Assembly (NCBI RefSeq): GCF_000219625.1
Contig: NC_018210.1
Coordinates: 248,001 to 312,000 of the forward strand
DNA: 64,000 nucleotides
Direction: 5' to 3'
Source of the DNA: Zymoseptoria tritici IPO323
Lineage: Eukaryota; Ascomycota; Dothideomycetes; Mycosphaerellales; Mycosphaerellaceae
A program made the translations under genes and the position numbers. Of the stretch, positions 1 through 62,541 are shown one piece after another (position 1 is the stretch's first letter; each line of letters starts with the position of its first letter). The notes under the pieces are model-generated. The model saw only the letters and a list, made by a program, of their open reading frames with translations. It was not told where the DNA came from and did not search any database.

Positions 1-910
1 GCCCGCAAACGAGAAGATCCTACAAGCCCGACAGCTACTAGTCGAAGCGGCGGGGGATCTAGGCAGGATGCTAGAAGAACAAACCCGGGTTCTCGACCTT
101 CTCGAAGTCTTTCGGCACTTTACCGAGCGTATAGACTTTAGGACAACGTCCTAAATCCTCGCAAAGTAAGTCTCGAACCTAGAAACGACAATAAAGAAAC
201 TAGTAGCACAGGCGAAGAAGCCTACTTTCGTAGACGTTATTAAGGGAGATAGCGGATCCGCTACCTCTACCTCTACCTCCTCGATAACAAAGACAATACA
301 ACAATAATAACAACAATAACAATAGTAGACGACCGTCTCCCGGAGGGCTAGCAAGCTAAAAGAACAAGCAGAACCGATGCCTCTTATCCTTGTACTAAAG
401 GATAAAGAGAAGGAACTCGACTAGATCGCAACCCGAGACAAAATTAACGACGCTCTTAAAGGCGAAGACTAAGAGCTAGCTGTCCTTGCGATAAAGAAAT
501 TAGTTCGGGGTAACATTGTCCTAAACTTTGTAATAGAGAAAGCCCGCTAACGAACGATCGATAGCCTTACTAAGGTTACCGATATCGTAGGCGAGGCATA
601 GGTAATAGAGGACTCTCTCTAGCACAAGGTCGTAGTCTACGGCGTCTCGACCGCGAACTTTAATACGCTAACGGGCCTACAGGACATTTAACGAGAAATT
701 AAGACCTTTAATAGAGGTCTTAAACTCGCAGGCACCCCGATTTAGCTAACAAACGAAGAGAGAAGAAGGACTCTTACTAGGGCGACAGTTCTAGTAGGTT
801 TTGCTACCGAGGAGGAGGCAAAAAGGGCTATTTAAAACCGTCTATACGTAGGCGCGGACAGCCTAAGAGTCGAGAAGGCGAAGGATCGTATACAACAGAA
901 AGGGAGGCCC
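1..910 (+). pseudogene. LINE ORF1 (gag-like) remnant
   Basis: Reading through stops gives a charged N-terminal segment followed by a stretch around 640-890 of the kind seen in Tad-type ORF1 (VYGVSTANFNTLTGLQDI, then LVGFATEEEAKRAI and LRVEKAKDRIQQ). In related elements this is followed by CCHC zinc knuckles. Here the frame passes within a few codons into the endonuclease region and I see no knuckles, so the 3' part of ORF1 appears deleted. Many in-frame TAG and TAA codons make it non-coding. Confidence 0.6.
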
Positions 911-935
911 CTAGAACGTTCTACATGTTAGAACA

Positions 936-1762
936 CTCTCTACGGATCTTCCATGTTAATCTTAACCGATCTATTAAGGCTATAGAGTCTACCTTAGACG
1001 TCGCGGTTAAGCAGAAAGCCGACCTTCTACTAGTCTAGGAACCGTAGACTATAGAAGACCCGATAACAGGCTATAAAGAGACAAGATCTATCGCACACCG
1101 GGATTATAACCAGCTATTCCTAACAACTACGGATTCGACGATCCGGCTAAGAACAATACTATATATTAGCACAAGACTTAACGTTAATATCTCTCCTATT
1201 TTATTAGACGACAGCGACATACTTTCCTTTGTTATTTTAGACAAGAAGGGCAACAAGATCCAGATAGTTAATCTCTATAACGAGAAGGACCTTCGGGATA
1301 CCGAGAACCCGCAAAACCGACGAATAACAGAGAGAAGCCTCTACTCTCTACGCAACACGTTCCTTCTAAACACTCTACTAGTAGGAGACTTTAACCTTAG
1401 ACACCCGTCCTAGGATCCGAGGGGAAAGGATACTACTAGTGCCCGCGAATTTATAGAGTAGATAGAAGACTAGGGCTTTACTCTATGTAATACGATAGGT
1501 GTCGGGACCTTCTATAGGCCGCACCTAAACGCAGAGTCGGTCCTAGACCTTACGTTTACAAGAGGATCCTTATCTACGAAAGAAATCGACTAGAGAACGA
1601 TTCCGACAGGCTTAGACTATAAGGCTATATCTATAGACCTTATTAGCGCGCAAAATCGAGCCTAACAGAAGAAAGTAGTACTAGATATAGCTTCCGCGGA
1701 TTAGGAACTGTTTACAGATCTCCTAATAAGCAAGGCGACGTCTATTAACTATACGAACTCCC
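936..1762 (+). pseudogene. LINE ORF2 part 1: APE-type endonuclease remnant
   Basis: In one frame, through stops, the APE landmarks can be read: LRIFHVNLNRS at the start (LRILQHNLNRS in intact relatives), KADLLLV-stop-EP, and VGDFNLRHPS-stop-DPRG at about 1381-1425, where the stop takes the place of Trp. This enzyme nicks target DNA for target-primed reverse transcription. The frame is interrupted at 1762 by the SINE-like insertion and resumes after 2597 with one target-duplication copy removed. It is non-functional because of multiple stops. Confidence 0.85.
1750..1762. repeat. 13-bp target-site duplication, left copy (SINE-like A)
   Basis: tatacgaactccc occurs here and again at 2585-2597, directly bracketing the inserted element. 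Removing the insertion and one copy joins the LINE ORF2 in frame. Confidence 0.95.
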
Positions 1763-2584
1763 AGACGGCCGAACAGACTGCACCTTTACGCGGTGGCCGT
1801 CGTAAGTACCTTCCTCGGAAGGGAAACCAAGACAGTCTGGAAGAAACCTCCTCGAAAACCTCTCGAAATCCGCCCGAAATCCTTCTCGAAATCCGCCTCG
1901 AAATACAAGCTATAGAACAACAGCACGATTCGAACGAATAGCTCTCTACGCTACGAACAAGAAGAAGAAGAAGAAGAAGAAGAAGAGGCAGTCTACTCTG
2001 TCCTATACGCGCACCTCCTCGAAATCCGAACCGAAATCGCACCTCGTACACTTTAAAGAGCTAGAACAGTCGGTGGAATCTACAACTCTGCGATCAACCT
2101 ACGTAGCTGTATGCGTTTGGAAGCGGCATGCAGTTCCACAAAGGCGTATTAAGGATAAGAGGGGGCAGCGAGTTGGACAGCTGCTTATGCTGCTTTAGCT
2201 GCTTTTGCAGTGCTTTTGTACGGCATTTTGCACTACTTTTGCACGGCATTTTGCACTGCTTTTGCACTACATTTCGAACTTGCAGCGTACGTACGAAGCG
2301 GAAGGATCCGCTAAAAATTCTACAAAAAGCTTGGCGCGAAAATTCTGTAGCCCCGGCTGCAGACAACGACACTCGTTTGATTTCCTTTGTCTTGCGCTGT
2401 TTTAAAGTCCTTCGGCAGATCCTACTTGCAGGTCCTACCTTAGGCACGGGGTTTCCCCTAAGGTTAAAGAATACCGAAAGAATTTGATTGTAAATAGATC
2501 TACTGCCTTGCTTATAAGGCCGTCCTACATAGTCGTGGACTCCTAAAGGACGTAAATGGAACAAACAAACAAACAAACAAACAA
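1763..2584 (+). mobile_element. SINE-like non-autonomous element, copy A
   Basis: A 0.82-kb insertion inside the LINE, flanked by a perfect 13-bp direct repeat (tatacgaactccc at 1750-1762 and 2585-2597). It ends in (AAAC)n. Its last ~190 bp match the LINE 3' end (the shared strings include gtcctacatagt and ggacgtaaatggaac), so LINE machinery probably mobilised it. From about 1895 on it matches copy B at 34970-35778. The first 75 nt can fold as an HDV-like ribozyme. It holds an internal array rich in GCATTTTGCAC-type units at about 2205-2275. I see no meaningful ORF. It keeps many TG and CA dinucleotides, so it is less RIP-damaged than its host LINE. Confidence 0.92.
1764..1839 (+). ncRNA. Candidate HDV-like self-cleaving ribozyme, copy A
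   Basis: Hand folding gives P1 gacggcc (1764-1770) with ggccgtc (1795-1801), 7 bp. P2 is cagactg (1774-1780) with cagtctg (1833-1839), 7 bp. P3 is acc (1782-1784) with ggt (1792-1794), closing loop L3 tttacgc (1785-1791). P4 is ccttc/gaagg at 1809-1822. J4/2 contains ccaa (1827-1830), which fits the CNRA active-site pattern of this class. Strand order and spacing are those of the HDV double pseudoknot. The predicted cleavage point lies within one base of the element's 5' end. Cleavage is untested. Confidence 0.72.
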
Positions 2585-2597
2585 TATACGAACTCCC
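2585..2597. repeat. 13-bp target-site duplication, right copy (SINE-like A)
   Basis: A perfect match to 1750-1762, immediately after the (AAAC)n tail. Confidence 0.95.
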
Positions 2598-4990
2598 TCG
2601 ACGACATTACAGACTCCTTTACCTCGTGTATTACCGAATCGATGCGGGGAGCAATCCTAGAGAAAGTAGTACACGCCTGCGCAAAACCTTGGTAGAATAG
2701 AGAGCTACGCACGCTACGCCGTACAATGTCTAGAACATATAGACAGACCTTTACCTACAGACGTACGCCGACGCTAGACGAGAAAGAGGCGTATACGAAA
2801 GCGAGAAACGAGTACTTCTAAGCTATTAAAACAGCTAAGAAGAACTACTAGAACGCTTTCCTCGAAAAAGAAGACTCGAAATCTATCTTTAAAGCTATGT
2901 CCTATACTAGGAATAGCAGCCGAAGACAGATACCTACGATAAACAACGAAGATTCTTTCGAGGGGAAATATAAGGCCTTCTCCGAAGCCTTATTTCCGCG
3001 CCCTCCTGCCGAGGAACCTCTACCTAGCCGTTAGGAAGCGTATACAGCCGGGGATTAGGGCTGGACTACGCTAACCGAAGAGGAACTCGCTGCCGCCTAT
3101 AGTACGAAGATAGTAAAAGGAAAAACGCCGGGCCTAGACGATATTACGCAAGCTATTATTAGTAAAGCGTACGGCGCTATTCCTATTACCTTTCTACATA
3201 TATACAGTAGGCTACTCGACGAAGGACACTACCCCTAATGCTAGAAAGTTGCGATAGGCGCAGTTCTAGCAAAGCCGGGAAAACTAGACTATTCGGTCCC
3301 TAAGGCCTACCGAGTTATCTCTTTCCTAAACTGCCTCGGTAAGATTAGCGAGAGAATACTCGCAAAACGCCTAGGGATTATCGCAAAGACGAAGCCCCTT
3401 CTACACGACTCGTAGTTAGGAGGGCGAAAGAAGAAATCGGCTATCGATACGGTGCTTCTCTTAACGAACGAAATCGAGGAGAATTAAAGAAAGAAAAAGA
3501 AGACTTCAGTTATCTTCCTCGACGTAAGAGGAGCATACGACTACATTACAAAGAACCGACTATTAAGAATAATAATCTAGTTAAGGCTTCCGCATAGCCT
3601 TATACATTAGGTTTAGTTGTTTATAAGTAATAGACGCCTACGAATAGCATTCGACGGACAGATATAGGAATTCCAGGACGTAGAGATCGGCGTTCCGCAA
3701 GGTAGCCCGATATCTCCTATCCTCTTTCTTATCTATACGCGCGACATATTCTTCTCGCTACAAGGAGTTACTCCTAGTTCCTACGTTAACGACATTAGAC
3801 TATCTACCTCGTCTACGTCCCTTAAGAAGAACTCTAAGGTACTAGAACGTAAGGCAAGAAGGCTAATAGACCTAGGAAAGAAGAACTCGATTGCTTTCGA
3901 CCTAGCAAAGATAGACCTAGTACACTTCTTAAAAGGGAAAGGGTCCGATTGCCCGGTAATTCTTCTAAACAGCGATATTGTTCGCCTAGCAAAGAAAGCA
4001 ATAAGGTAGCTTAGGATTTAGCTAGACGCCGGTCTTACCTTTAAGGAGCATATTATAATAAGATCGGCATAAGCATAAGCGGCATTCTATTAATTAGAAA
4101 GACTAGCAAATACCGAACGCGGTCTATCTTCTATATCGTTAAGAAAGATCTACCTAGCCTGCGTTACTATAATAGCAGACTATAGGGCCCCGGTTTGGTA
4201 GCGGTCGAAAAAGAGTATAAAACCTCTAGTATCTCTATAAAGTAAAGCTTATAGAAAGATCCTAGGCGTTTTCCGTACTGCCCTAAACGTCCCGTCCGAA
4301 GTAGAGTCAAATCTCTTCCCCCCGGATCTACGCTTAGAGAGACAGTTAATTTTATACTCTCTACGCGTAGCAAAGCTACCCGAAAACTACCCTGTAAGAC
4401 TCGTTATCTAAAGCGCGCCTTCGGATACGCGAGAAGTCCGACACGAGGACTCGAGAGAGACACTTCCGCAAAAACGACAGAGAACATAGATATAACTACT
4501 CTATTATCGACTCCGACAATATAAGCATTTCGTAGAACACGAGAGGGCTAACTACGCAAAAGACGATCTCTTTAGCGTCTAGAAAACCCGATACGAAATA
4601 GTAAGACAACAGGAGATTAATAAGGTACCTAGGAATACAAATAGCTACCTTAGTCGATTTCTATAGAGCTCGCTAGGAAAACATAGAATAGGAGGAAGAC
4701 GCGCTTTAACTAGTACCTTCTATACTATCCTATTAGGACACGGATACCTAAAGTCCTATCTCTATCGCTTTAGATACGCAACGACGCTAGACTGCCCTTG
4801 CGGACGACGAGAAACAGCAGAACACCTCATATATAGCTGCCCTATCTACAATGTATTTAGGCTACTACCGCTACGATAAGCACAATCTCTACTAGAAATA
4901 GTAGAAGATAAAGAACTCCGGAAACACCTTACTACCTTTCTCTCGGATATAAAGATTGCTTCTAGGTCCTGGCACCTAGCAAGAGGCGAA
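2598..4990 (+). pseudogene. LINE ORF2 part 2: reverse transcriptase and CCHC knuckle remnant
   Basis: This continues ORF2 after the nested insertion. It begins with the pre-RT motif AKPW-stop-NREL at about 2680-2710. RT block GVPQGSPISPILFLIYTRDI lies at about 3689-3750, followed by the catalytic box, which reads YVND at 3782 instead of YADD, so two of four residues are changed by transitions. KAYRKILGVFRT follows near 4245. A knuckle of the form CPCGRRETAEHLIYSCP lies at about 4793-4845. The stops are mainly TAG in Trp positions. The enzyme is dead, but the copy is complete at its 3' end. Confidence 0.9.
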
Positions 4991-5215
4991 GACGAGACCG
5001 TCTAGCCTACACTCCTTTTACTTTTCCTTATTTGTCTTTCTTTAAAGTCCTTCGATACTAGCTTGCTACTATCCTAGGCACGGGTCTTTCCCTAAGGTCA
5101 AGAGATACGAGAGAACAACGATTGTACATAGATAGACTGCTATCGCGAGACAGCCGTCCTACATAGTTATAGACTCCTATAGGACGTAAATGGAACAAAC
5201 AAACAAACAAACAAC

Positions 5216-5715
5216 AAATACTACTATTATTACGATACTTCGATACTCTACGATAATAGTATTAGGTAGCGGAACGTCCTATAGGGATCGATATATTAGT
5301 TAACGCTAGAATAAATACGTTTTCGAATATATTCGCGAATACGTTCGGAAACGTATTATATAACATATTAGGCTACCTTCTCGTCTAGTAGGGTAATCGT
5401 ATAAGTAGCCTCGAAAAGATCGTCCTCGTTATAGAGCCCGTCGGTATACAAAGCCTTAAGTAAATCTATAATAAAGAAAGGTATAATTTTACGTAATATT
5501 TTATAAAACAGCGTCGCGATACTACGTATAAAGATTTTTCACTAATGCTAAGCCTACCCCTTACTTCCTCGGCCGACCCTAAACGCGAAAATGTCGGAAT
5601 TTAACTAGTCGGCTTGGCATGTGCGACTGGTCGGCCGGGCTGTAGACACGTTCTTTCCGACTGTACTCCCCCGAGACATTTGGGCCTGGTCTGAACTTAG
5701 CGTCTTTGAACAACA
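5216..5715. other. Degenerate AT-rich repeat relic, then promoter region
   Basis: 5216-5540 is TA-rich with many in-frame stops and no Trp codons, like the RIP-damaged elements. It is probably the repeat into which the LINE inserted; its family is not recognisable. Ordinary-composition DNA resumes at about 5545 and leads to the gene starting at 5716. Confidence 0.5.
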
Positions 5716-26866: not shown

Positions 26867-29659
26867 ATGGCACCTAAGGGTAAAGGAACCCTGCTCGAGC
26901 TGTGCACATCGACGACGATTCAAGGAAACAGCATCGCCGTTCACGTACTGGAATATCTCAGTATCGCCCAGACTCCTCCTCTTGGATTTCGAGAAGTAGC
27001 CGTTGAATTTCTGGAAGTCAGTCGGGTTCTATTCACAGCCAGAGCTGGACTTTCAGATGCCACTGGCCGTACTACAGCGACTTCCACAGTCGAAGTCAAC
27101 CGGGACTTTCACGAGAAGGTCAATCAAACTAAGAATGTCTTCACAATCTACGACCAGATGGTCAACAAGCTCCTCTCCACGGAGAAGAAGCAGACGTTCG
27201 GAAAGCTGGGCAAAGGCCTTCGATTGATGTTTGCCGATGGTGACATGGAGAAGCTGAGGGTCAGCTTCAGTCAATGCCGCGCTGCTCTCTCACTGGCTGG
27301 ACACCTGTTCCCCGAGGCCAGAGCTGGACACAGTGTCGACGCTGCCTCAACGATCGGATACACGGCATTGGCGGCTGTCATGGAACGAGTTGACCCAAGC
27401 CGACCGGCATCAAGCCATGCAGTTTTGCCAAAGACCGGCCTACCACCGTCTCCACCGCCGACCATCCCGCTTCCTTCAGCGCCTCTATCAATGCGCAGCG
27501 AGACCAGAAGCCCTCCCGTTGTCGCAAACGAGCCTTGGACACACATGTCGCCTGTTCGTTCACCCGCCGAATCGACTGGCACCGCCAGCACCTCTCGCAG
27601 CCATGCCACATTTGCCTCGTCGTTGCCTCGTTTCAGCAACGTGAGCTCAATGATTGGTGGTGGTCATGGAGACAACGTTTTCGGCACCGCGGACAACATG
27701 TCCGATATCACAGATGCGACTTCGATCATTTCTAGGATGGATATCTCGGACACCACTCGTCAGTCCTACGCCAACGGCGACAAGCTTCCTAAACAAGCAA
27801 TTCGCATGAAGATTGATCCTACGAAAGCTCAGAGATGGGCTCCAAAGAGGACGGTGGGCAACATCACGGAAGCTGCAAAGACTGCATTGGCGACGGCGGT
27901 TCACCAGAAGCATCACAAGATGATTGAGCAGTTGCTTGATCAGGGCGTACCCGCCAACAGCGCAAGCGGCAACAACCTCCTCTGCGACGCTGTCATCAAT
28001 CACGACTTGGAGAGCGTTCGTCTCCTGCTCCTCTTTGGCGCCGACGCGAACGGCACGGACAAGGACAACTGTACGCCACTTTATGCTGCCACCGGAGCAT
28101 CGTTTTTCGAAGCAGCACAATTGCTCATCAACTACAATGCAAACCCAAATCAATCTGCTGGAATGTACGGTGAATCGCCGTTCGCCGTTTCCTTGTCGGA
28201 CGCCAAAGCACCGTTCGCCCACATGTACCTTCAATATGGTGCGGACCCATCAGCAGTGATGGAGAACGGCGACACCGCTTTCACCCAGTCCATGAATAAG
28301 TATACACCTTCTTGGCTCATTGAGCTGATGCTCTTGTACTCGACTCCGGTCGATGCCAAAAACGCTCGCGGTGAGACCGCCCTGTTCAAAGCCATCAATT
28401 CCGCCCGCCTGGATCTGGTCTCAAAACTGTTGAGCGCCCGCGCAGATCCCAACCTTCCCGGACCAAAAATTGTGCTCTGGCCTGCAGTCCACCACCCTGC
28501 TATCCTCGAAGAGCTTCTCACTCACGGCGCCGATCTGCGCCGCGCACCCGGTGTTCTGGAGCTGGCCACTTCCACTAACTCCACGGAAGCAGTGAACATC
28601 CTCCTTCACCACGGTGCTGATACCAACGCCAAGAAAGACAACATTTACACTCCGCTCTGTTCCGCTATTCGAGATGATCGTGAGGCTCTCGTCGAGACCC
28701 TGCTCGCGGCTGGTGCAGATCCCAACCTCAAGGCTCTCGACTGGCCCCTCTTCAAAGCGGTGTCTTATCATCGCACGCACATGATTCCGCGTCTGCTCGC
28801 CGCCGGCGCCGATCCACATCACCCCAAGGGTTTGATCGAATCTGCCGTTGCACACGAGAACATGCCAGCGTTGAACTATCTCCTCCGCCAAAACATTGAT
28901 CCCAATGCTCGCAACGCAAAGGGCTATACTGCATTGACAACCGCGATTCGCGATAACCACCCGGAATACATTGACGTCCTCCTCGCTCATGGCGCCGATC
29001 CTTCTGTCCGCGGACAAGACTGGCCCATTAGTATGGCAGTCAAGCGCCCCGCCATCCTCGCCAAGCTTCTACCGCACATCCAGCCCTCCAAAATCCTCCC
29101 AGGCGCAATGGAACTCGCCGTCGTCGCCGACCAACTCGAGTCGGTCCGTCTGCTCGTCAACGCGGGGATGGATCCCGAGTCGAAGAACGGTGGCGTCTTC
29201 TCCCCTCTCACTACCGCCATCCGCGAGAACCGAAAAGAGATCTTCCGATACCTCGTTGACGAAGCGGGTGCAGACGTCAACACTCCCGGTGAGCACTTGC
29301 CCATCATCAAGGCAATTCGCCGTCATCGCGAAGAGGATCTGAGTTACATCTCCCACTTACTCGAGAACGGCGCGAACGTGAACCTCATGTACCGCGGCTG
29401 GAACGCCGTGCTGCAAGCGCTGGAGAATGGGGATCTGGAAATTCTCAAACTATTGATGGAAAAAGGCCGTCCCGGTCCGGATCTCGACCAACAAGACGAC
29501 AGCGGACGGTCGGTGAGAGACATCATCCACGAGAGAGATCTAATCGAGGAAGAAGAGATTTTGATGGGCAGGCGAGGCGAGGTCGTGCAGTTGAATACGT
29601 TGGAAGGTGGAGGCAAGACGAAGAGAGTGGGTGTGCAGGTCAAGGAGTTTGTGCTTTGA
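26867..29659 (+). CDS. Ankyrin-repeat protein with helical N-terminal domain (930 aa)
   Basis: A single exon from ATG 26867. Residues 1-160 form a helical domain resembling the N-terminal domain found on fungal NACHT/STAND-type proteins (FREVAVEFLEVSRVLFTARA ... FSQCRAALSLAGHLF). Residues 180-320 are a Pro/Ser-rich linker. From about 335 to 890 there are roughly 15 ankyrin-type repeats, several degenerate, recognisable as LLxxGADPN and TPLxxAIxxxxxEIVxxLL variants (for example VRLLLLFGADANGTDKDN). No NACHT P-loop is present, so the architecture is N-domain plus ankyrins. Probably a protein-interaction or immunity-type scaffold; partners unknown. The stop is TGA followed by CTAG, and the same frame stays open for 65 more codons (separate entry). 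Confidence 0.88.
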   Translation: MAPKGKGTLLELCTSTTIQGNSIAVHVLEYLSIAQTPPLGFREVAVEFLEVSRVLFTARAGLSDATGRTTATSTVEVNRDFHEKVNQTKNVFTIYDQMVNKLLSTEKKQTFGKLGKGLRLMFADGDMEKLRVSFSQCRAALSLAGHLFPEARAGHSVDAASTIGYTALAAVMERVDPSRPASSHAVLPKTGLPPSPPPTIPLPSAPLSMRSETRSPPVVANEPWTHMSPVRSPAESTGTASTSRSHATFASSLPRFSNVSSMIGGGHGDNVFGTADNMSDITDATSIISRMDISDTTRQSYANGDKLPKQAIRMKIDPTKAQRWAPKRTVGNITEAAKTALATAVHQKHHKMIEQLLDQGVPANSASGNNLLCDAVINHDLESVRLLLLFGADANGTDKDNCTPLYAATGASFFEAAQLLINYNANPNQSAGMYGESPFAVSLSDAKAPFAHMYLQYGADPSAVMENGDTAFTQSMNKYTPSWLIELMLLYSTPVDAKNARGETALFKAINSARLDLVSKLLSARADPNLPGPKIVLWPAVHHPAILEELLTHGADLRRAPGVLELATSTNSTEAVNILLHHGADTNAKKDNIYTPLCSAIRDDREALVETLLAAGADPNLKALDWPLFKAVSYHRTHMIPRLLAAGADPHHPKGLIESAVAHENMPALNYLLRQNIDPNARNAKGYTALTTAIRDNHPEYIDVLLAHGADPSVRGQDWPISMAVKRPAILAKLLPHIQPSKILPGAMELAVVADQLESVRLLVNAGMDPESKNGGVFSPLTTAIRENRKEIFRYLVDEAGADVNTPGEHLPIIKAIRRHREEDLSYISHLLENGANVNLMYRGWNAVLQALENGDLEILKLLMEKGRPGPDLDQQDDSGRSVRDIIHERDLIEEEEILMGRRGEVVQLNTLEGGGKTKRVGVQVKEFVL

Positions 29660-34000: not shown

Positions 34001-34955
34001 ATCGTTACTAAGGTTAATCCTAAATACCTTAGAGCAATCTATAAGCTTATAAAGCCGCTATAGTAGATAATAGCTACTATAGCTAAGAAGGTAGAGCTAA
34101 AGGATAAGACGCCGCTAGAGCTTCTTAGTAAGCGGCTAGCTCGCGACGAAGTCGTACTAGAGGGTATAAGCAATAAGGATAAGGACCTACTTTTAATAAG
34201 GTTATTAGACAATCTAAACCTCGCTGTTACCGCTAAACCGCTACTAAAGGAAGAGCTAAGTAGCCGCCTTAGATTATACCTACGAAGGATTATTATATAG
34301 GCTAAACCGTCTACGCCGGCGCCGGTCGAGAACCCTCTACCTTACTATACTCCGGCGTAACACGCCTATCTATAGTAGAGTTATACATTCTCGCTATTCC
34401 CTTAGTCGTAGCTACTACCGTTAATTAGTAAGATATATAGCGGACTATATAGTTACCGTCGTTAATAAAGGAGGTAGAGTTAAAGTTGTAGGTATTTAAA
34501 TTTAAGATATAAGAAGTTGCTTACTAACCTATTTTTAGTAGTTTTAATAATAGAGGAGCACTTAGGACGTAAAGATACCTTTAACTACCTTACTAGAGCT
34601 CGCGGAAGAGAAAAGTAGGGCTATACTATCGATTTATATAGAGGTGTTTTAAGAATTTGCTAATATTCGGCCTAATTAGGAAGGAGCAGCTCTGTTTTTC
34701 GCGCTAGTTTTAAGCTTTAGTATCTCGTAGTATCTTCGCGCCCCGCCCTGTCCTCTATCTATAAAATACGGAAATTTCTACCTTATAGACGAGAGGTCGG
34801 TATAACGGCCTTAGCGTAAGAAACTCGCGAATTAACTAGCAAATATATATATTCTTTATAAGAACGCCGTTCCGCGCTCTCTTAAATAGTATTAGTCGAA
34901 TTCGTTACCGCTTTAAGGGCCCCTTATGTCTAATCTACTCCTTTCGTAGTATTCC

Positions 34956-34969
34956 TAGTAATCCTTTTA
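34956..34969. repeat. 14-bp target-site duplication, left copy (SINE-like B)
   Basis: tagtaatcctttta, repeated at 35779-35792. Confidence 0.95.
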
Positions 34970-35043
34970 GGCCGGCGACGAGGAACACCTGTACGCGGTG
35001 CCGGCTACGAACCTGCGATACTATCGCAGAGCCAAGTTTCCTC
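34970..35043 (+). ncRNA. Candidate HDV-like self-cleaving ribozyme, copy B
   Basis: P1 ggccggc (34970-34976) pairs with gccggct (35000-35006), 7 bp with a G-U at the cleavage-site pair, as in HDV itself. P2 gaggaa (34980-34985) pairs with ttcctc (35038-35043). P3 acc (34987-34989) pairs with ggt (34997-34999), with L3 tgtacgc between. P4 is ctgcgat/atcgcag at 35013-35029 with a 3-nt loop. J4/2 contains ccaa (35032-35035), fitting CNRA. The first P1 base is exactly the first base after the target duplication. Untested. Confidence 0.76.
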
Positions 35044-35778
35044 AGGAGGATTGGAGAGGCCGTTAATCCCTCTTCCCTTACAACAACAACAACACGACCT
35101 GGAGGTACGCCTCCTATCGAAATACAAGCTACAACAGAACAACGGCACGATTCGAACGAACAGCCCTCTACGCTACGAACGAGAAGAAGAAAGAAGCAGT
35201 CCACTCTGCCCTATACGCGCACCTCCTCGAAATCCGAATCGAAATCGCATATCCCTTCTCTAGAGACTTCGTCGCCCTCGAAGGAAGCATATATGCACTT
35301 CAAAGAGCTAGAACTCGGTGGAATCTACAACTCTGCGATTAACCTGCGTAGCTATATGCGCTAGAAGGCGGCATATAGTTCTACAAAGGCATATTAAGGA
35401 CAAGAGAAGGCAGCGAGTTGGACAGCTGCTTTTTGCGCCTTTGCGCTATTGCGCCTTTGCGCTACATCGCCTTGCGCTGCATCTCTTTCGAATTCGCAGC
35501 GTGTGTGCGAAGCGGAAGGATCCGCTGAAAATTCTGCAAAAAGCTTAGCGCGAAAATTCTGCAGCCCCGGCTACACGACACTCGTTGGATTTCCTTTGTT
35601 TTGCGCTGCTTTTAAAGTCCTTTGGCATTTTGCCTTAGGCACGGGGTTTCCCCTAAGGTCAAAGAATACCGAAAGAATTTAATTGTAAATAGATCTACTG
35701 CCTTGCTTACAAGGCCGTCCTACATAGTCTTGGACTCCGAAAGGACGTAAATGGAACAAACAAACAAACAACAAACAA
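34970..35778 (+). mobile_element. SINE-like non-autonomous element, copy B
   Basis: A 0.81-kb insertion in the Harbinger element, flanked by a perfect 14-bp duplication (tagtaatcctttta at 34956-34969 and 35779-35792) and ending in an (AAAC)n-type tail. It matches copy A (1763-2584) from the tcgaaatacaagct region onward, including gcagcgagttggacagctgct and the last ~190 bp shared with the LINE. The first ~130 nt are unlike copy A in sequence but fold the same way. The internal tandem array differs from that of copy A (tgcgcctttgcgct units at about 35435-35490). No protein-coding capacity. Confidence 0.93.
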
Positions 35779-52347: not shown

Positions 52348-55300
52348 ATGGACGATGAGTCGGCGGAGATGGAAGAGAAGCGGAAGCTGCCGATTGAGTT
52401 GACAGGGCTGGTGGACTTCTTGGACTGGGAAGAGGCGCCAAATGCGATTGTGAGGGTCGGAGGAACAGTAGGCACACAAGATGTGGTGTACCTGAACCCG
52501 GCTCTCACGCAGCTCGTGGAACGGGAACAAGAGGTCACAGATTTGACAGAGGCAATACGGAGGAGTTGGACCACTCAGGAGGAGAGATGGGCTTTTCATG
52601 GCAAGGAACTCGAGGGAAAGAGATGGCGGACGAGAATGACGGGTGAATACTGTGTTGCGACAGCAATCGGGCAGAGGAAGCAGAGCACGGAGCGCCCTGC
52701 GTCTAATGGTACGGCTATTGTGAATGGACATGAGACAAGCGAAAAGAACGATACTTCTCAATCCCTGGACTGGACTCGCCATCCCATAACCAGTCCGTCT
52801 GCATGGATCGAGTCCATTCGTACCATGGACTGGTCATCCACCGCAATTGGACCCATGTCGTCCTGGTGTCCGACTCTGCGTCAGTACATGCTCCACATCA
52901 TGTCCAATCCTGAACCACGACTCCTGATCTGGGGTGAAAGCATGACCTTCATCTACAACGAGGCCTGTGTGGAGTTCTTCGGCGAGAAGCATCCTCATGT
53001 ACAAGGGAAGAGTGTCCAAGAAGCGTGGAGCGAGATCTGGGAGCCAATATCGCCTATGATCAAGGCTGCGTACGCAGGACAAACAGTCAAGCTGGCAGCA
53101 TCGTTGCAATTTATCGAACGGCACGGGTACACGGAAGAGACGTACTGGGACTTCGCCATGGTTCCGATTGTTGGGCCGGATGGTCGCGGTATTGGCTTGA
53201 TTGATGAGATTACAGAGACCACGTCGATGATTACGGCTGATCGGAGACGACGATTTCTCAATGAGTTGAGCGAAAAGATGCAGACTGCAGCCACCCTCCC
53301 CGCCGTCTGGACGGCTGTATTGGAATGCATAGAGTCCGCCAGTCCGGATTTACCCTTTGCCATGCTCTATACCGTTGCTGACGACTTGGGCGATGATGCT
53401 GATGGAACGACGTCTGATTACGCTGCCTCAGTGGAGTCGCAACAGCCATCACGGCTAAAGAAGTGTGTCCTTGCGGGTACTGTCGGTGTCTCGGACGACA
53501 ATGCGGAGGCCGTGAAAACATTCACACTTCACGACGCCGAGCACCCCTCAAGTATTGCAGGACGTTGTTATGAAGCTTGCAAAGGTGGCAAAGCGATCCA
53601 TCTCTCCTCCAGCGAAGGGACACTTCCAGAATCTCTTCGTGGCCCGATTCCTGGTCGAAGTTTTGACGACGGAATACGAACAGCGATCGTTTGTCCTCTC
53701 GGCTCAGCCATGAGCTCTGACATTGTGGGAGTACTGGTCTTAGGATTGAATCCTCGGTCGCCCTTCAATTCGGAATACAAGATTTTCCTTCACGTTGCGG
53801 TTGAGATGATCGAAAAGGCTGCGGCATTGATCTCTCTACCCGAAGAGCAACGACGAGCGCAGAAGCTGGCAGACGATATCACCACTGCCCTCACTCAGCA
53901 GCTCCGCTTGTCGAACATCCAGGCTGAGAAGAACGAAGCCAAGTTCTCGCGCATGGCCGACTCCGCACCCATCGGCATGTTCATGTTCGGACCAGACGGC
54001 AAAACCATATATACCAACAAAGCGTACAAGGACTTACTAGGAGTGGACAATGGAGAAGAGACAGCGATAACATCGCAGAAGCAGTTCAACTCGTGGGGTG
54101 ATCTCCTTCACGCCGATGACTTGGACCTCTTCCTCACTGCGTGGGCGAGGGTCACCGACGAGAAAGTTCCGATCACCTTCGAGTACCGGCTGAAGAGGCC
54201 GTGGTCATCGATTGATAAGTCCACGGGTCAGAACACTTCGGGTGAAACGTGGTTACATGCTACGGCTTTTCCGGAGATTGCGCCGGATGGCTCGGTGACG
54301 ACTGTACAAGGTTGGCTCACGGATATTTCGCATCGCAAGTTCTCAGAAAATCTGCTTTCGCAGAAACTTGAGGATGCTCTGGAGAATAAGCGGCAGACGG
54401 AGAACTTCATTGATATGACGTCTCACGAAATGCGGAATCCGCTCTCGGCAATTCTTCAGAGCGCAGACTCTATCCTGTCCACCCTATCCGCGACTGGGAT
54501 GCCGATATTGAACGAAGACCTGGTGCTGCCTGCCGAAATCGCCGAGGAGATCATCGACGCCGCTCAAGTCATCGTTCTGTGCGCGCAACACCAAAAGCGC
54601 ATCGTAGATGACATCTTGACACTTTCGAAGCTTGATGCGAGTTTGCTGGTGATCTCTCCGGACAAAGTCCAGGTTCCGGCGCTGATCAAGAAGGCTCTCA
54701 AGATGTACGAGGCCGAGATCGAACGTGCTGATATCGATGCTCAGCTTCAGATCGAGCCGACTTACGAAGATCTAAAGGTTGACTGGGTCGTGCTTGATCC
54801 GTCTCGATTACTTCAGGTCGTCATCAATCTGCTGACCAACTCGATCAAGTTCACCCAGTACTCCTCCACACGGAAGATCAAAATTTGCATAGGTGCTTCG
54901 CGCCAACGGCCCTCCGGCCAGCATCACGGCATATCTTTCGTACCACCACGCTTCAATCGTCCGTGTAAGACGCCCGCAGCGGAATGGGGACACGGCGAAG
55001 ACATCTACCTTCAAGTCGCTGTCTACGACACTGGTCGCGGGCTCAATGATGATGAGATGAAAGTCCTCTTCGGACGCTTCCAACAGGCGAGTCCGAAGAC
55101 ATACCAGCAGTACGGCGGTTCCGGACTCGGACTTTTCATCTCCCGAGAGCTGTGTGAGCTGCAATGCGGACAGATCGGGGTGTCCAGCAAAGACGGCCAA
55201 ACAGTCTTCACCTTCTACGTCCGAGCCAAGCGCTGGCTGAACGACGACCACCTCACGCAAGCTCCCGCGAACGCCTTCGCCAGCGCTTCAGCCTCTCCAA

Positions 55301-55998
55301 TTGCCTACAGCCGTCGTGGAAGCATAGTCATGAACCCTCCCGAAGACCAAATGGAAGCATCCGCCCCTCTCCCCGACGGCTCCACAGTCACGACCTTCAA
55401 GCCTCTCTCCCGACAGCCGTCATACACCAAGACCCCACTCCAACTCGTCACCGAACAGACTCCCGATCAGGTCGATGCAGCGACAATGACCTCCCCCACC
55501 GCCACCCCCACCTCAGCTTCGACCAAACCACCTCAACTCCACGTCCTCATAGTAGAAGACAACACCATCAACGCCCGCGTCATGTCCAAACAACTCCGCC
55601 GCGCAGGCTGCATCGTACACATCGCCAACCATGGCGGCGAATGTCTCGACTTCCTCGACCGATCGTCCTTCTGCGCTCCAACTCCGCCTTCCACGCCTAC
55701 ATCTCCGAACGTTCCTCCTACTCCCTTATCAATCATCCTTCTCGATCTCGAAATGCCGACTATGGATGGACTGACCTGTATACGCCATATCCGCGAGAGA
55801 CAAGCGAACGGACGGCTAGTGGGCCATGTTCCGGTCATTGCGGTCACGGCGAATGCTAGGAGCGAACAGATTCATTTTGCAATTGAGGCGGGGATGGATC
55901 AGGTTGTTACGAAGCCGTTTAGGATTCCGGAGCTGGTGCCTAGAATGGAGGGGTTGGTGGGGGAGATTTTGGCGGGGTTGAAGATGAATGGAGGGTGA
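52348..55998 (+). CDS. Hybrid histidine kinase (1216 aa)
   Basis: A single exon from ATG 52348. Domain order: a PAS-type sensor at about 155-300 (MDWSSTAIGPMSSW ... WGESMTFIYNEACVEFFG), a GAF-like region at about 310-500, a second PAS at about 530-665 (MADSAPIGMFMFGPDGKTIY), HisKA with phospho-acceptor His about 693 (MTSHEMRNPLSAI), HATPase with N-box VINLLTNSIKFTQ, DTGRGL and GGSGLGLFIS (about 920), and a C-terminal receiver with LLDLEMPTMDG (Asp about 1133) and VTKPFR. No transmembrane segments, so cytosolic. It should autophosphorylate and relay through a phosphotransfer protein to response regulators and MAPK output. The signal is unknown; I cannot assign its fungal class with confidence. 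Confidence 0.94.
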   Translation: MDDESAEMEEKRKLPIELTGLVDFLDWEEAPNAIVRVGGTVGTQDVVYLNPALTQLVEREQEVTDLTEAIRRSWTTQEERWAFHGKELEGKRWRTRMTGEYCVATAIGQRKQSTERPASNGTAIVNGHETSEKNDTSQSLDWTRHPITSPSAWIESIRTMDWSSTAIGPMSSWCPTLRQYMLHIMSNPEPRLLIWGESMTFIYNEACVEFFGEKHPHVQGKSVQEAWSEIWEPISPMIKAAYAGQTVKLAASLQFIERHGYTEETYWDFAMVPIVGPDGRGIGLIDEITETTSMITADRRRRFLNELSEKMQTAATLPAVWTAVLECIESASPDLPFAMLYTVADDLGDDADGTTSDYAASVESQQPSRLKKCVLAGTVGVSDDNAEAVKTFTLHDAEHPSSIAGRCYEACKGGKAIHLSSSEGTLPESLRGPIPGRSFDDGIRTAIVCPLGSAMSSDIVGVLVLGLNPRSPFNSEYKIFLHVAVEMIEKAAALISLPEEQRRAQKLADDITTALTQQLRLSNIQAEKNEAKFSRMADSAPIGMFMFGPDGKTIYTNKAYKDLLGVDNGEETAITSQKQFNSWGDLLHADDLDLFLTAWARVTDEKVPITFEYRLKRPWSSIDKSTGQNTSGETWLHATAFPEIAPDGSVTTVQGWLTDISHRKFSENLLSQKLEDALENKRQTENFIDMTSHEMRNPLSAILQSADSILSTLSATGMPILNEDLVLPAEIAEEIIDAAQVIVLCAQHQKRIVDDILTLSKLDASLLVISPDKVQVPALIKKALKMYEAEIERADIDAQLQIEPTYEDLKVDWVVLDPSRLLQVVINLLTNSIKFTQYSSTRKIKICIGASRQRPSGQHHGISFVPPRFNRPCKTPAAEWGHGEDIYLQVAVYDTGRGLNDDEMKVLFGRFQQASPKTYQQYGGSGLGLFISRELCELQCGQIGVSSKDGQTVFTFYVRAKRWLNDDHLTQAPANAFASASASPIAYSRRGSIVMNPPEDQMEASAPLPDGSTVTTFKPLSRQPSYTKTPLQLVTEQTPDQVDAATMTSPTATPTSASTKPPQLHVLIVEDNTINARVMSKQLRRAGCIVHIANHGGECLDFLDRSSFCAPTPPSTPTSPNVPPTPLSIILLDLEMPTMDGLTCIRHIRERQANGRLVGHVPVIAVTANARSEQIHFAIEAGMDQVVTKPFRIPELVPRMEGLVGEILAGLKMNGG

Positions 55999-59235: not shown

Positions 59236-62200
59236 TCACACCCCAGCACTAAACTCCGGATCAACTTTACTCTGCTTGAACAAACTCTTGCCCCTCATCA
59301 ACCACTGCCGATACGCCTTATACCTCTTCTTCGCCCCGTCCTCCTCCGTAACCGTCAGTGCATCCGTCCTCGGCGCCAGAAACGCCTCGTAATCCCTCAG
59401 ATCCTCATCGTCTACCCCATCATCCTCCTCGTCCTCCTCTTCTTCATCCAGAAACTCAAAGCCGTACTCCTCATCAAGCAGCGGAGCTCGGAGATGGGGT
59501 TTCGTGGCTCGCATGGCGCTGCCGAGTGGCGCGACGGTCGACTTACGGATATACTCGACTAAGTCTCTGTTTTTGTTTCCTCCGTCGGGCGCGATTTCGG
59601 AAGAATTGGAGATGACGAGGGGCAGGTGGAGGGGATGGGAGATGTAATGTGCGTATTCGGCGGCTTCGGATTCGGAGACGTGCGGGTTGAGGGATTGCGT
59701 GTGGAATTGGTTGAGGGTCCAGAGGTGCATGATGGATTTGTCGGCGGGTTTGAAGGTGGAGTTTGTCATGCTGTTGTTGTTGTTGAGGGTGGTGGAATTG
59801 GTGGTGTTGGTGGGAGGGTTTGAGGCGGAGAGCGAGGATATGGAGGCATGGTGGGAGTGGCGGCTGTCTCTCAGAATGCTGTGTTTCTCATCGAGGGGTG
59901 GGTGGGGGATGGCGGGAGTTGAGGGTGGTGCGTCGGGGAGGAGTTGAGAGTCTTTCTCGGAAGGGTCGAGGGGCGAGAAGGATGCTAGACGGCGTTCGCA
60001 TTCGCGCTCTTCGTAGGGGTCGACGATTTTGACGCCTTTGCGGATTGGTTTCTTTTCGTCTTCGGCTTCGTTGAGGTGGTTTGAGGATTGGGAGGTGCTG
60101 TGTTTGTGGGGGTCGTTTCGCCGAACAAAGGGCGAGAAGTCGTATTTATTGTCGCCGTATGGTCGTTCCGGGAGGTAGCGCTGTGTGGAGGTCATGCGGT
60201 AGGAGTAGACTTTTGCCAGAGAAGAGAGGGTTGTCGGACGATAGCACTCTCGCCAATAATCATCAAGAGCAGCAATAGGTTCCGGAGAAGGATGATCTGC
60301 AGAACTGGTCAGCCGAAGAGGCAAGCTCCGCGGTTGCAGATGCTCCGGCGTGAACCAATGTATGTAATTCCGCCGATTTCGTTGCAGCCAGGCTCGAGGA
60401 TCGCTATGGTGTAGGTAGTAGTCCGTAGCCAGATCCCAAAGCATAGGCGCTCCCTGGGCCCAGATGTAGTTGCCAAGGAAGAGGTTGTATGCCTCTTGTC
60501 GCTGTGAATCGAGAAAAGAATTGTGGTAGTACCGCTTGAAGCTCTCCACCATGTCTCGAGAGGAACTCTGCCAGTGACTGAGTTTGCGGTAGGTAGCCAT
60601 GGTATTGACCAGGTGCGATCCTCCGTATTGCATGGCGATGTTATCACCATGGTCGTGGAACATTGCCGTAAAGAGGTTGACTGCGTCAGTATCGTACGCC
60701 AATTCCGACTTGGTGATGACACCCAGAATCTTCAGCTGCTGAGCAAATGCGTGCTTTCCGATGACGAATTGCGCAGCGTTTGTCCTATCCAGACAGTCGA
60801 TACAATTCGTCCTGGCGATACCATTCTGCACTTGCGGCTCCTGCAATCCTTCTTCGCCATTGTGAAACAGTCCGGTCCTCTCCAAGATGTCCTTTGCAAT
60901 CACTTCCAGCCCGCCAATAACATCGCTGTTCCTCGTCTTCGCCGCCCTCGACATATCGTACGCCTTGTACAAGATCTTCTTGTCCTCAGGCAAGCTTTGA
61001 TTGAGATAATTGATGCAGCCTTGGAATTCATGCAGCAACTTCGACTCTCTTGGCACTTTCTCTCTCGACTTGATCAGATTGAGGACATACACCGGGCACC
61101 CATACCGCTCAAAGAGATTGTCGAAATGCTGCGCCGCGGGCTGATAGAACGGATCGCTCAAGTTGATGTCAATACCTGGCTTTGGTGTCACACCGCTATT
61201 GTCTTGCGTCCAGTACAGCGGTATGCTGCCTCTGTGATGCAGATACGATGTATAGTTCGGATTGGCGAACAGTCTCGGACCTGGAGCATGGAAAGAAGTG
61301 CTCAACTTCTCTGCAACAATCTGCTCAGTCTCGACATCGTTGGCCACATATCCCATGTCGTTCACACCACGCTTCAAGAATCGAGCACCGGCGAAATGGC
61401 GTGACCGTCGTCCAATAATTGTGACATACACCGTTCGCCCGAAAATGTCCAGCGCCGCTTGGTCCAGAAATCCATGTATAATCGGCAAACACCAGTCGAA
61501 AGGATGCTTCAAGGCTTGCACTGCCGGTTTCAGCAGATGGTGATTCCAGACGAACATGGCATTGTAGTCGTTCGCCGCAACTTTCAGCCCATCGTTCAAC
61601 GCCTGCCGTGCTCGAATGATGTTCCTCTGCAGCGAGCTCGTGATGTCGTAAGCATAACTGAAGTAGAAGCTCTTCGTCAGATCCAGATTATTCAAGATCC
61701 CCAGAAACCTTGCCTCCTCCGCATTCCGATCGCGCATGAACGAGCTGCTCGCACCAGTCGTAAGCGGCACCAACTCCGTCCCTTCAACCTGATAAACATA
61801 ATGCCCTCCAATCATAGCCACCTGCTTCCTCTTCGTAATAATAAGCATATAATACGCCTCGGTAAACCTGATAAACCCAAGCAGTCCCCAAAAGCTAAAC
61901 TTCATCCGCAACCCTCCATTCGGCTTATTCCCCTGATCAATCGCATTGAGGACATCGTGCATCTGTCTCCGATCATACACCGTCTCGTCCTCGAACAGCG
62001 CGATCTGTCCCGGAGCACTATTACGGTCGATTCGCAAGAGGCGGAAATTCTGGTCGGTGATGTCGGCTCCTGTGATCCAGTATCGGACGTTCGTCTCGTA
62101 GAGCGTGAACTTATACATGCGATGCGGGCGGGCGTCTTGGTCGTGGAGTTGTTGGACTTCGTTGGGGTCTTCTTTTAGGTGGGCGTCGTCGTCCTCGGAG

Positions 62201-62541
62201 CGGACTTCACCGGCGACTTCTGAGGCGGTGGCGCCGACTCCGGGGTAGGTCGGTGGGTCCAGGATTGAGGAGGGATGACTTGCAGATTGGACAAGACCGT
62301 CTTCGACGCTGTTGTTATCGTCATTTTGAGTGCGAGACGATGATCTGGCCGGCTCCGGTCTAGCTGTTCTGAGGAGACCACCGAGGGAGGCACTGCGGGC
62401 ATCAGAGGCGTTGGCGGCAGTGGCCAATCTCTTCCCGACATTCTTGGGCTCAGATCTTCGTCTTTCAGTGTCATAGTCTGAGCCTGTCGGGTCGTAGTCT
62501 CCATCCGTACTTGGCCCGGCATCGATTGGTCCCTGGTCCAT
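59236..62541 (-). CDS. fig4: Fig4-type SAC-domain phosphoinositide phosphatase (1101 aa)
   Basis: A single exon from ATG 62541. About 135 disordered residues precede a SAC domain that begins RMYKFTLYETNVRYWITGAD and LLRIDRNSAPGQIALFEDET, close to Fig4. The catalytic CX5R motif is NCIDCLDRTN, with Cys about 580 and Arg about 586. Fig4 homologs dephosphorylate PI(3,5)P2 and support its synthesis in the Fab1/PIKfyve-Vac14 complex on the vacuolar membrane. The domain continues to about 790, with WFTPEHLQPRSLPLRLT and RPYGDNKYDFSPF beyond. The C-terminal 250 residues are Ser/Asn-rich, with an acidic patch (LDEEEEDEEDDGVDDED). It is longer than yeast Fig4 (879 aa) because of the disordered ends. 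No membrane anchor. Confidence 0.93.
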   Translation of the reverse strand: MDQGPIDAGPSTDGDYDPTGSDYDTERRRSEPKNVGKRLATAANASDARSASLGGLLRTARPEPARSSSRTQNDDNNSVEDGLVQSASHPSSILDPPTYPGVGATASEVAGEVRSEDDDAHLKEDPNEVQQLHDQDARPHRMYKFTLYETNVRYWITGADITDQNFRLLRIDRNSAPGQIALFEDETVYDRRQMHDVLNAIDQGNKPNGGLRMKFSFWGLLGFIRFTEAYYMLIITKRKQVAMIGGHYVYQVEGTELVPLTTGASSSFMRDRNAEEARFLGILNNLDLTKSFYFSYAYDITSSLQRNIIRARQALNDGLKVAANDYNAMFVWNHHLLKPAVQALKHPFDWCLPIIHGFLDQAALDIFGRTVYVTIIGRRSRHFAGARFLKRGVNDMGYVANDVETEQIVAEKLSTSFHAPGPRLFANPNYTSYLHHRGSIPLYWTQDNSGVTPKPGIDINLSDPFYQPAAQHFDNLFERYGCPVYVLNLIKSREKVPRESKLLHEFQGCINYLNQSLPEDKKILYKAYDMSRAAKTRNSDVIGGLEVIAKDILERTGLFHNGEEGLQEPQVQNGIARTNCIDCLDRTNAAQFVIGKHAFAQQLKILGVITKSELAYDTDAVNLFTAMFHDHGDNIAMQYGGSHLVNTMATYRKLSHWQSSSRDMVESFKRYYHNSFLDSQRQEAYNLFLGNYIWAQGAPMLWDLATDYYLHHSDPRAWLQRNRRNYIHWFTPEHLQPRSLPLRLTSSADHPSPEPIAALDDYWRECYRPTTLSSLAKVYSYRMTSTQRYLPERPYGDNKYDFSPFVRRNDPHKHSTSQSSNHLNEAEDEKKPIRKGVKIVDPYEERECERRLASFSPLDPSEKDSQLLPDAPPSTPAIPHPPLDEKHSILRDSRHSHHASISSLSASNPPTNTTNSTTLNNNNSMTNSTFKPADKSIMHLWTLNQFHTQSLNPHVSESEAAEYAHYISHPLHLPLVISNSSEIAPDGGNKNRDLVEYIRKSTVAPLGSAMRATKPHLRAPLLDEEYGFEFLDEEEEDEEDDGVDDEDLRDYEAFLAPRTDALTVTEEDGAKKRYKAYRQWLMRGKSLFKQSKVDPEFSAGV

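Follow-up and report, generated by a model that had tools for sequence, protein, structure and literature searches.

Two short repeated elements in the genome of Zymoseptoria tritici IPO323, here named A and B, each begin on their first base with a sequence resembling an HDV-like ribozyme, and are best read as non-autonomous, LINE-dependent retroposons whose RNA would have its 5' end set by predicted self-cleavage. Judged from the sequences and their genomic copies, this reading is given a probability of roughly 0.87.

The window, by which is meant the whole stretch of DNA analysed, comprises 64,000 nucleotides of contig NC_018210.1 (positions 248,001 to 312,000, forward strand). Ordinary genes are also found in it, encoding an ankyrin-repeat protein (26867-29659), a hybrid histidine kinase (52348-55998) and a SacI-domain protein (59236-62541). 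Element B and its insertion footprints were placed as follows:

34970..35778, + strand: element B, a SINE-like non-autonomous retroposon of 809 bp, delimited by alignment and insertion footprints
34956..34969, + strand: 5' target-site duplication of element B, TAGTAATCCTTTTA, 14 bp, recognised from the empty site in locus L157
35779..35792, + strand: 3' target-site duplication of element B, TAGTAATCCTTTTA, from the empty-site comparison
35636..35778, + strand: 3' end of element B, common with the partner LINE (80%), with a (CAAA)n-type tail

Once joined, the flanks of element B match the paralogous empty site L157 over 414 bp at 97% and without a gap, demonstrating that element B is an insertion and that its first base is G34970. 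An earlier note on this DNA had claimed that the fold starts on the first base after a 14-bp duplication, and this is borne out by the presence of TAGTAATCCTTTTA at both ends and by the empty site L157. Shortly after the ribozyme, element B contains a (CAA)n stretch (35080-35095). The flank at 34700-34969 is itself repeated, occurring in 12 further places at 73-98%; by eye it is TA-rich and CA/TG-poor, resembling the product of repeat-induced point mutation.

The first 74 nt of element B can be folded into a full double pseudoknot of the HDV type, composed of the following parts:

34970..35043, + strand: putative HDV-like ribozyme of element B, 74 nt, a descriptor match found in 95 genomic places
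34970-34976/35000-35006, + strand: P1, 7 bp, first pair G.U, with predicted cleavage directly before 34970
34980-34985/35038-35043, + strand: P2, 6 bp
34986, + strand: extra C at the P2-P3 junction, a C in 56/56 distinct B places read
34987-34989/34997-34999, + strand: P3, enclosing L3 (34990-34996, 7 nt)
35013..35029, + strand: P4 hairpin, 7 bp (35013-35019/35023-35029)
35030-35037, + strand: J4/2, with CCAA at 35032-35035 and the presumed catalytic C at 35032 (CNAA)

The strand order P1-P2-P3-P3'-P1'-P4-P2', the helix lengths of 7, 6 and 7 bp for P1, P2 and P4, and the 7-nt L3 were all recovered as the earlier note had described them. Its reading of CCAA in J4/2 as a fit to CNRA, the consensus around the catalytic C of HDV-like ribozymes, was likewise upheld, the J4/2 C being present in 95/95 B copies.

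A strict descriptor, written after B was known, returned two sites (A and B) across both strands of the window, and thus located the element A site blind. The features of this second element are:

1764..2584, + strand: element A, a second SINE-like element, inside a LINE copy
1750..1762, + strand: 5' target-site duplication of element A, TATACGAACTCCC, with one extra A at 1763 before G1
2585..2597, + strand: 3' target-site duplication of element A
1764..1839, + strand: putative HDV-like ribozyme of element A, found by the descriptor, with 172 genomic heads
1764-1770/1795-1801: P1 of A, 7 bp
1774-1780/1833-1839: P2 of A
1782-1784/1792-1794: P3 of A
1809-1813/1818-1822: P4 of A
1827: J4/2 C of A
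1805..1825, + strand: loop-E-like AGUA (1805-1808) and GAA (1823-1825), around P4 of A

The joined flanks of element A match another copy of its host LINE over 300 bp at 96%, again without a gap. The bodies of A and B are related and their ribozymes are different, the letters in A being GACGGCC/GGCCGUC for P1, CAGACUG/CAGUCUG for P2 and CCUUC/GAAGG for P4. The AGUA/GAA letters, which resemble a loop E motif, are well kept, with GTAAGTA and GAAA in 46/46 A copies, and are absent in B. Several units resembling CTCGAAATCCG are found in element A, together with a run of GAA (1844-1906, 1960-1985).

Minimum-free-energy folding of B did not return the HDV-type fold, its best nested competitor lying at -28.1 kcal/mol, 5.4 kcal/mol below the -22.7 kcal/mol of P1+P3+P4; for A the corresponding values are -26.7 and -21.9 kcal/mol, and in both elements P2 is left out of the energies, as the nested-folding program cannot draw pseudoknots. 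The earlier note had suggested a search with covariance models of HDV-like ribozymes. At the gathering score, Rfam produced no match, and the ribozyme of element B was without a match even below that score, an absence which is a weak test in view of the omission of the pseudoknot from models of this type. Element A gave four weak matches, the best of which was the HDV-F-prausnitzii ribozyme, aligned end to end at 1764-1840 with 17.6 bits (E 0.24) against a gathering score of 44.

Across 60 dinucleotide shuffles of the window the descriptor matched 18 times, equivalent to 0.3 chance sites per window, such that the descriptor count by itself is weak. Both descriptor sites, however, fall on the first base of an insertion, which is not expected by chance. 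Genome-wide, the B head (first 45 nt, up to 3 mismatches) occurs in 95 places and the A head (the corresponding 46 nt) in 172, each count including the window copy, and the reversed-pattern controls gave 0 for either head. Two B-head searches, one with the 45-nt head and the other with a pattern containing J4/2 and P2', returned the identical 95 places. A motif internal to A and B, close to their 3' ends, was counted in 278 places against 267 heads (95 B and 172 A), and the terminal motif with its tail in 419, the LINE included; all three are pattern counts, unpaired place by place. A search for further L3-type cores, limited to families with A or T after P3', yielded 10 against 11 in the reversed control, with none fitting the descriptor within its 3-kb locus. 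Locus L003 holds, at 2729-2814 on the minus strand, a lone descriptor match outside A and B elements, which was judged to be due to chance.

The earlier note had named a loss of P1, P2 and P4 complementarity among genomic copies as one of the observations that would refute a ribozyme. The comparison was made and gave no refutation: nearly all B copies retain these pairings, as do, with other letters, most of the A copies that were read. All 95 B copies, chosen on their first 45 nt alone, have CNAA in J4/2 and an intact P2' strand. P4 of B exists in two lengths, 17 nt in 19 copies and 23 nt (9 bp) in 76/95, and within the longer form three variants (GC, AU and GU) are seen at pairs 3 and 5 and two (GC and GU) at pair 8; the helix is mismatch-free in 92/95 copies and has one mismatch in the other three. 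Among the 46 A copies, all 22 pairs of P1-P4 are intact in 33, one is broken in 11 and two are broken in 2, affecting the outer P2 pair (9), P1 pair 7 (3), P1 pair 1 (2) and another P2 pair (1). Broken pairs in the 56 B places were seen at the P3 end pair (3), P1 pair 1 (1) and one P1.1 pair (1), with the P3-end base changed in 7/95 heads.

Between the window copies of A and B, both sides of a pair have changed with pairing retained at 3/7 P1 pairs, 6/6 common P2 pairs (P2 being aligned from the P3 side), 4/5 basal P4 pairs and one P1.1 pair, while P3 is identical. As P1 and P2 are nearly invariant within each family, the covariation rests mainly on the comparison of A with B, together with P4. 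Pair covariation within 14 close B copies was not above shuffles (93/500 shuffles equal or better), and these copies being uninformative, the 95 B copies and family A were used instead. In the alignment of 51 B copies, variable columns (those with at least 2 copies differing from the majority) make up 5/57 of the core, P4 left out, and 192/632 of the body, for which a Fisher p of 3e-4 serves as a guide only, since columns and copies are non-independent. The changes seen in the B core are at P1 pair 3 (C-G to U.G), J1/2, the last base of L3, the P3 end and the N of CNAA.

Conservation also extends to positions outside P1-P4. The U at place 1 and the G at place 6 of L3, presumably the exact places of the U and G that pair within this loop, are found in 46/46 A and 56/56 B distinct places read, as is the J4/2 C, which in all 46 A copies is followed by NRA, and the extra C of the P2-P3 junction is present in 46/46 A copies as well. 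Such an L3 U/G reverse-wobble pair has been described for HDV-like ribozymes (PMC3774820), as has P1.1, a helix of 1-2 bp formed by L3 with J1.1/4 (PMC4908430). P1.1 of B consists of U-A in 56/56 and G-C in 55/56 places; that of A is a single pair, C-G in 38/46 and U.G in 8/46, with U.U in 46/46 at the place corresponding to the second pair of B.

The insertions are precise at their 5' ends. In the first 40 copies fetched the alignment always begins at base 1, and it continues to the last base in 39, the exception being L025, which stops at 424. A recognised tail was present in 51 of 56 B loci (L025, L113, L114, L117 and L118 being dropped for having none), and an exact target duplication of 9-20 nt flanks 49 of these 51 copies, measuring 12-15 nt in 46; L032 and L115 have no target duplication. 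The duplication abuts G1, with no intervening base, in 48 of the 51. Of 9 A copies tested, 8 have the tail motif and a duplication of at least 13 nt (L121 was dropped), which abuts G1 directly in 5 and is separated from it by one or two extra bases in 3. Starting from the other end, each of the best 40 places for the 3' end (40/40) carries the head of A or of B, as assessed by eye from coordinates for 33 and by fetching for 7 (for L125, the head side only). Few if any 5'-truncated copies of A or B were encountered.

Certain copies have features of their own. B copy L040 (G000:C9:18586-20427) adjoins CCCTAA-type telomeric repeats, and as these are present on both sides, the length of its duplication is ambiguous. 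B copy L026 (G000:C2:14550-16372) ends in a tail of about 40 A rather than (CAAA)n, and L120 and L122 each have a changed base that puts them outside the strict descriptor.

The element looks non-coding. A coding potential for B was considered and rejected, as its indel lengths are spread evenly over the three remainders (203, 242, 236) and the variability of its sites has no codon phase in common across the tested segments. The longest open stretch on the + strand of 51 B copies has a median of 125 codons, compared with 76 in shuffled sequence and 109 on the - strand. No A- or B-box consensus was found on the + strand of copy B, and a tRNA search found none in the element. Runs of at least 5 T occur in 17/51 B copies, and of at least 6 in 5/51, which is mildly against transcription by pol III. 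The term ‘SINE-like’, used in the earlier note, is a fair one, the element being short and non-coding, with target duplications and a LINE 3' end, although ‘SIDE-like’ may suit it better given the lack of an A- or B-box consensus on the + strand of copy B.

The LINE into which element A was inserted belongs to the family that shares its 3' end with A and B:

1..5218, + strand: LINE copy of the partner family, split by element A, 94-95% identical to the LINE at L061, tail at 5186-5206

The LINE at L061 has two frames, of 409 aa and 1148 aa, the latter with endonuclease (PF14529, PF03372) and reverse transcriptase (PF00078) domains, i.e. an APE-RT protein. Among the 120 listed of 183 related proteins, identity is 35-62%, and those named come from Sclerotinia, Bipolaris, Pyrenophora, Venustampulla, Elaphomyces and Hirsutella, with one labelled Pedobacter. 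The LINE matches A over its last 183 positions (78%) and B over its last 143 (80%), and the (CAAA)n tail is common to all. Six further LINE copies are alike from one common 5' base; the L061 copy starts 43 bases further up than these six sisters, with its own duplication outside. No HDV fold was found at the LINE 5' end in the 7 copies, relaxed settings included. From the first 100 of the 419 tail places, 20 loci were picked for having no listed head nearby, and these proved to be 17 LINEs, 2 A elements and 1 short piece (L145). Truncation within 1 kb affects four of the 17 LINEs, whereas the other 13 extend as far as the fetched piece does.

In the proposed mechanism, a copy of A or B would be carried in a read-through transcript, within which the ribozyme (the first ~75 nt) would fold and cut directly before G1, releasing an RNA whose 5' end is exact. 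The common 3' end leads us to infer that the APE-RT protein encoded by the partner LINE would be attracted by the LINE-like terminus with its (CAAA)n tail and would insert a full-length copy by target-primed reverse transcription. The duplications of mostly 12-15 bp expected of such a process are observed at the insertions. The exact 5' ends, the scarcity or absence of truncations, the LINE-like 3' end and a fold at base 1 that has been re-paired between families together fit self-cleavage followed by LINE-driven target-primed reverse transcription. Counting against this reading are that Rfam leaves B unscored and A sub-threshold, that nested folds are preferred, that P1 and P2 are almost constant within a family, that the second P1.1 pair of B is missing from A, and that some pairs are broken.

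An exact 5' end could also be set by a promoter starting transcription at G1, the fold being secondary to it or common with it, as in Pr77, which is known from the literature as a promoter (PMC4748587, PMC8190864) and also as the place where the L1Tc ribozyme lies (PMC4035085). Precise 5' ends, and conservation of the block behind them, would equally result from a fixed start site, and the partner LINE copies do have one 5' start with no HDV fold. We nevertheless hold this to be decidedly unlikely: the block differs between A and B along much of its length, yet the pairing, several letters of L3 and the C of J4/2 are kept, none of which a DNA promoter would need, and the + strand of copy B has no A- or B-box consensus. 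That the fold is a chance or vestigial, inactive one, its copies alike merely through youth, is highly improbable, given that variation is lower in the core than in the body, that P4 varies with compensation, that family A re-pairs P2 wholly and P1 and P4 partly, and that both folds sit on base 1 of insertions. Consistent with it are the recent appearance of the insertions (49/51 B copies with exact duplications), the 0.3 descriptor sites per shuffled window, the lack of an Rfam match for B, and covariation among 14 copies that is not above shuffles.

An origin of A and B as strict SIDEs, i.e. internal-deletion derivatives of an autonomous, ribozyme-bearing LINE, would follow the route of the known cases, the R2 SIDEs (PMC3414825) and NARTc (PMC4035085), and the genome search for such a LINE was non-exhaustive. 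The LINE that shares the 3' end, however, shows no ribozyme in 7 copies, and wherever the locus was read far enough (51/56 B loci; 9 A) the head belongs to the short element. Together with the further L3-type cores, which were no more frequent than in the reversed control (10 versus 11) and none of which fits the descriptor, this makes a strict SIDE origin unlikely.

These elements have parallels in several known systems. The fungal variant HDV ribozymes, of which 230 were reported in 26 species (PMC5640933, Li & Breaker 2017), are described as carrying a loop E in their P4 and, at the P2-P3 junction, one additional nucleotide that is mostly a C, and constructs of the Penicillium chrysogenum and Aspergillus niger variants cleave at the base of P1 (PMC5640933). 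The extra C is shared by A and B and the loop-E-like P4 base by A alone, B having a plain P4; the cleavage-site pair, typically C-G in the reported variants, is G.U in B and G-C in A. The same report gives these ribozymes ‘widely variable gene associations’, and the string ‘transpos’ does not occur in its main text (PMC5640933). The HDV-F-prausnitzii ribozyme (RF02682) resembles A, as its best Rfam match, end to end and in register, and differs in that the score of 17.6 bits is below the gathering score of 44 and in that B is unmatched.

With regard to retroposons, the Drosophila R2 element and R2/R1 SIDEs similarly combine a 5' HDV-like ribozyme with a LINE 3' end, the SIDEs being without machinery, and one hybrid SIDE joins the R2 ribozyme to R1 sequences (PMC3414825). 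Those SIDEs are R1/R2-derived and located in 28S genes (PMC3414825), whereas A and B are dispersed in hundreds of copies with duplications of mostly 12-15 bp. The trypanosomatid NARTc, RIME and SIDER elements with Pr77/L1TcRz are also short, LINE-related and headed by an HDV-like ribozyme; compared by description, they have this ribozyme in common with their LINE, L1Tc (PMC4035085), unlike the partner LINE here, which shows none. The SINEs of Aspergillus fumigatus are likewise fungal short retroposons with target duplications, and are tRNA- or 5S-related (PMC5063351), whereas no such part was found in A or B. The earlier note knew of no described case in an ascomycete, a statement that has to be narrowed, since both fungal HDV-like ribozymes (PMC5640933) and ribozyme-headed non-LTR elements (PMC3414825, PMC4035085) were already known. 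The union of the two in a fungal SINE-like element was not encountered in the literature searched: among open-licence PMC papers, a scope outside which the 2009 and 2011 papers on HDV-like ribozymes fall, there was no fungal SINE-like family with an HDV ribozyme absent from its partner LINE.

It follows from the presence of two ribozymes, many copies and a partner LINE that the step from self-cleavage to full-length insertion is directly testable: here two natural ribozymes of different sequence head nearly the same element, in hundreds of copies, and with an identified partner LINE. This would give the HDV-like ribozymes of fungi a definite place and a function open to test, where the 2017 report had only variable gene associations to offer, and it indicates a possible way in which SINE-like elements that have no pol III head could arise. 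More tentatively, and at slightly less than even odds in our estimation, the variant HDV ribozymes dispersed in fungal genomes may largely represent the 5' ends of such LINE-dependent elements, which would constitute a fungal class of short retroposons that define their RNA by a self-cleaving ribozyme instead of a pol III promoter, and in which the ribozyme can be exchanged or can re-evolve independently of the LINE.
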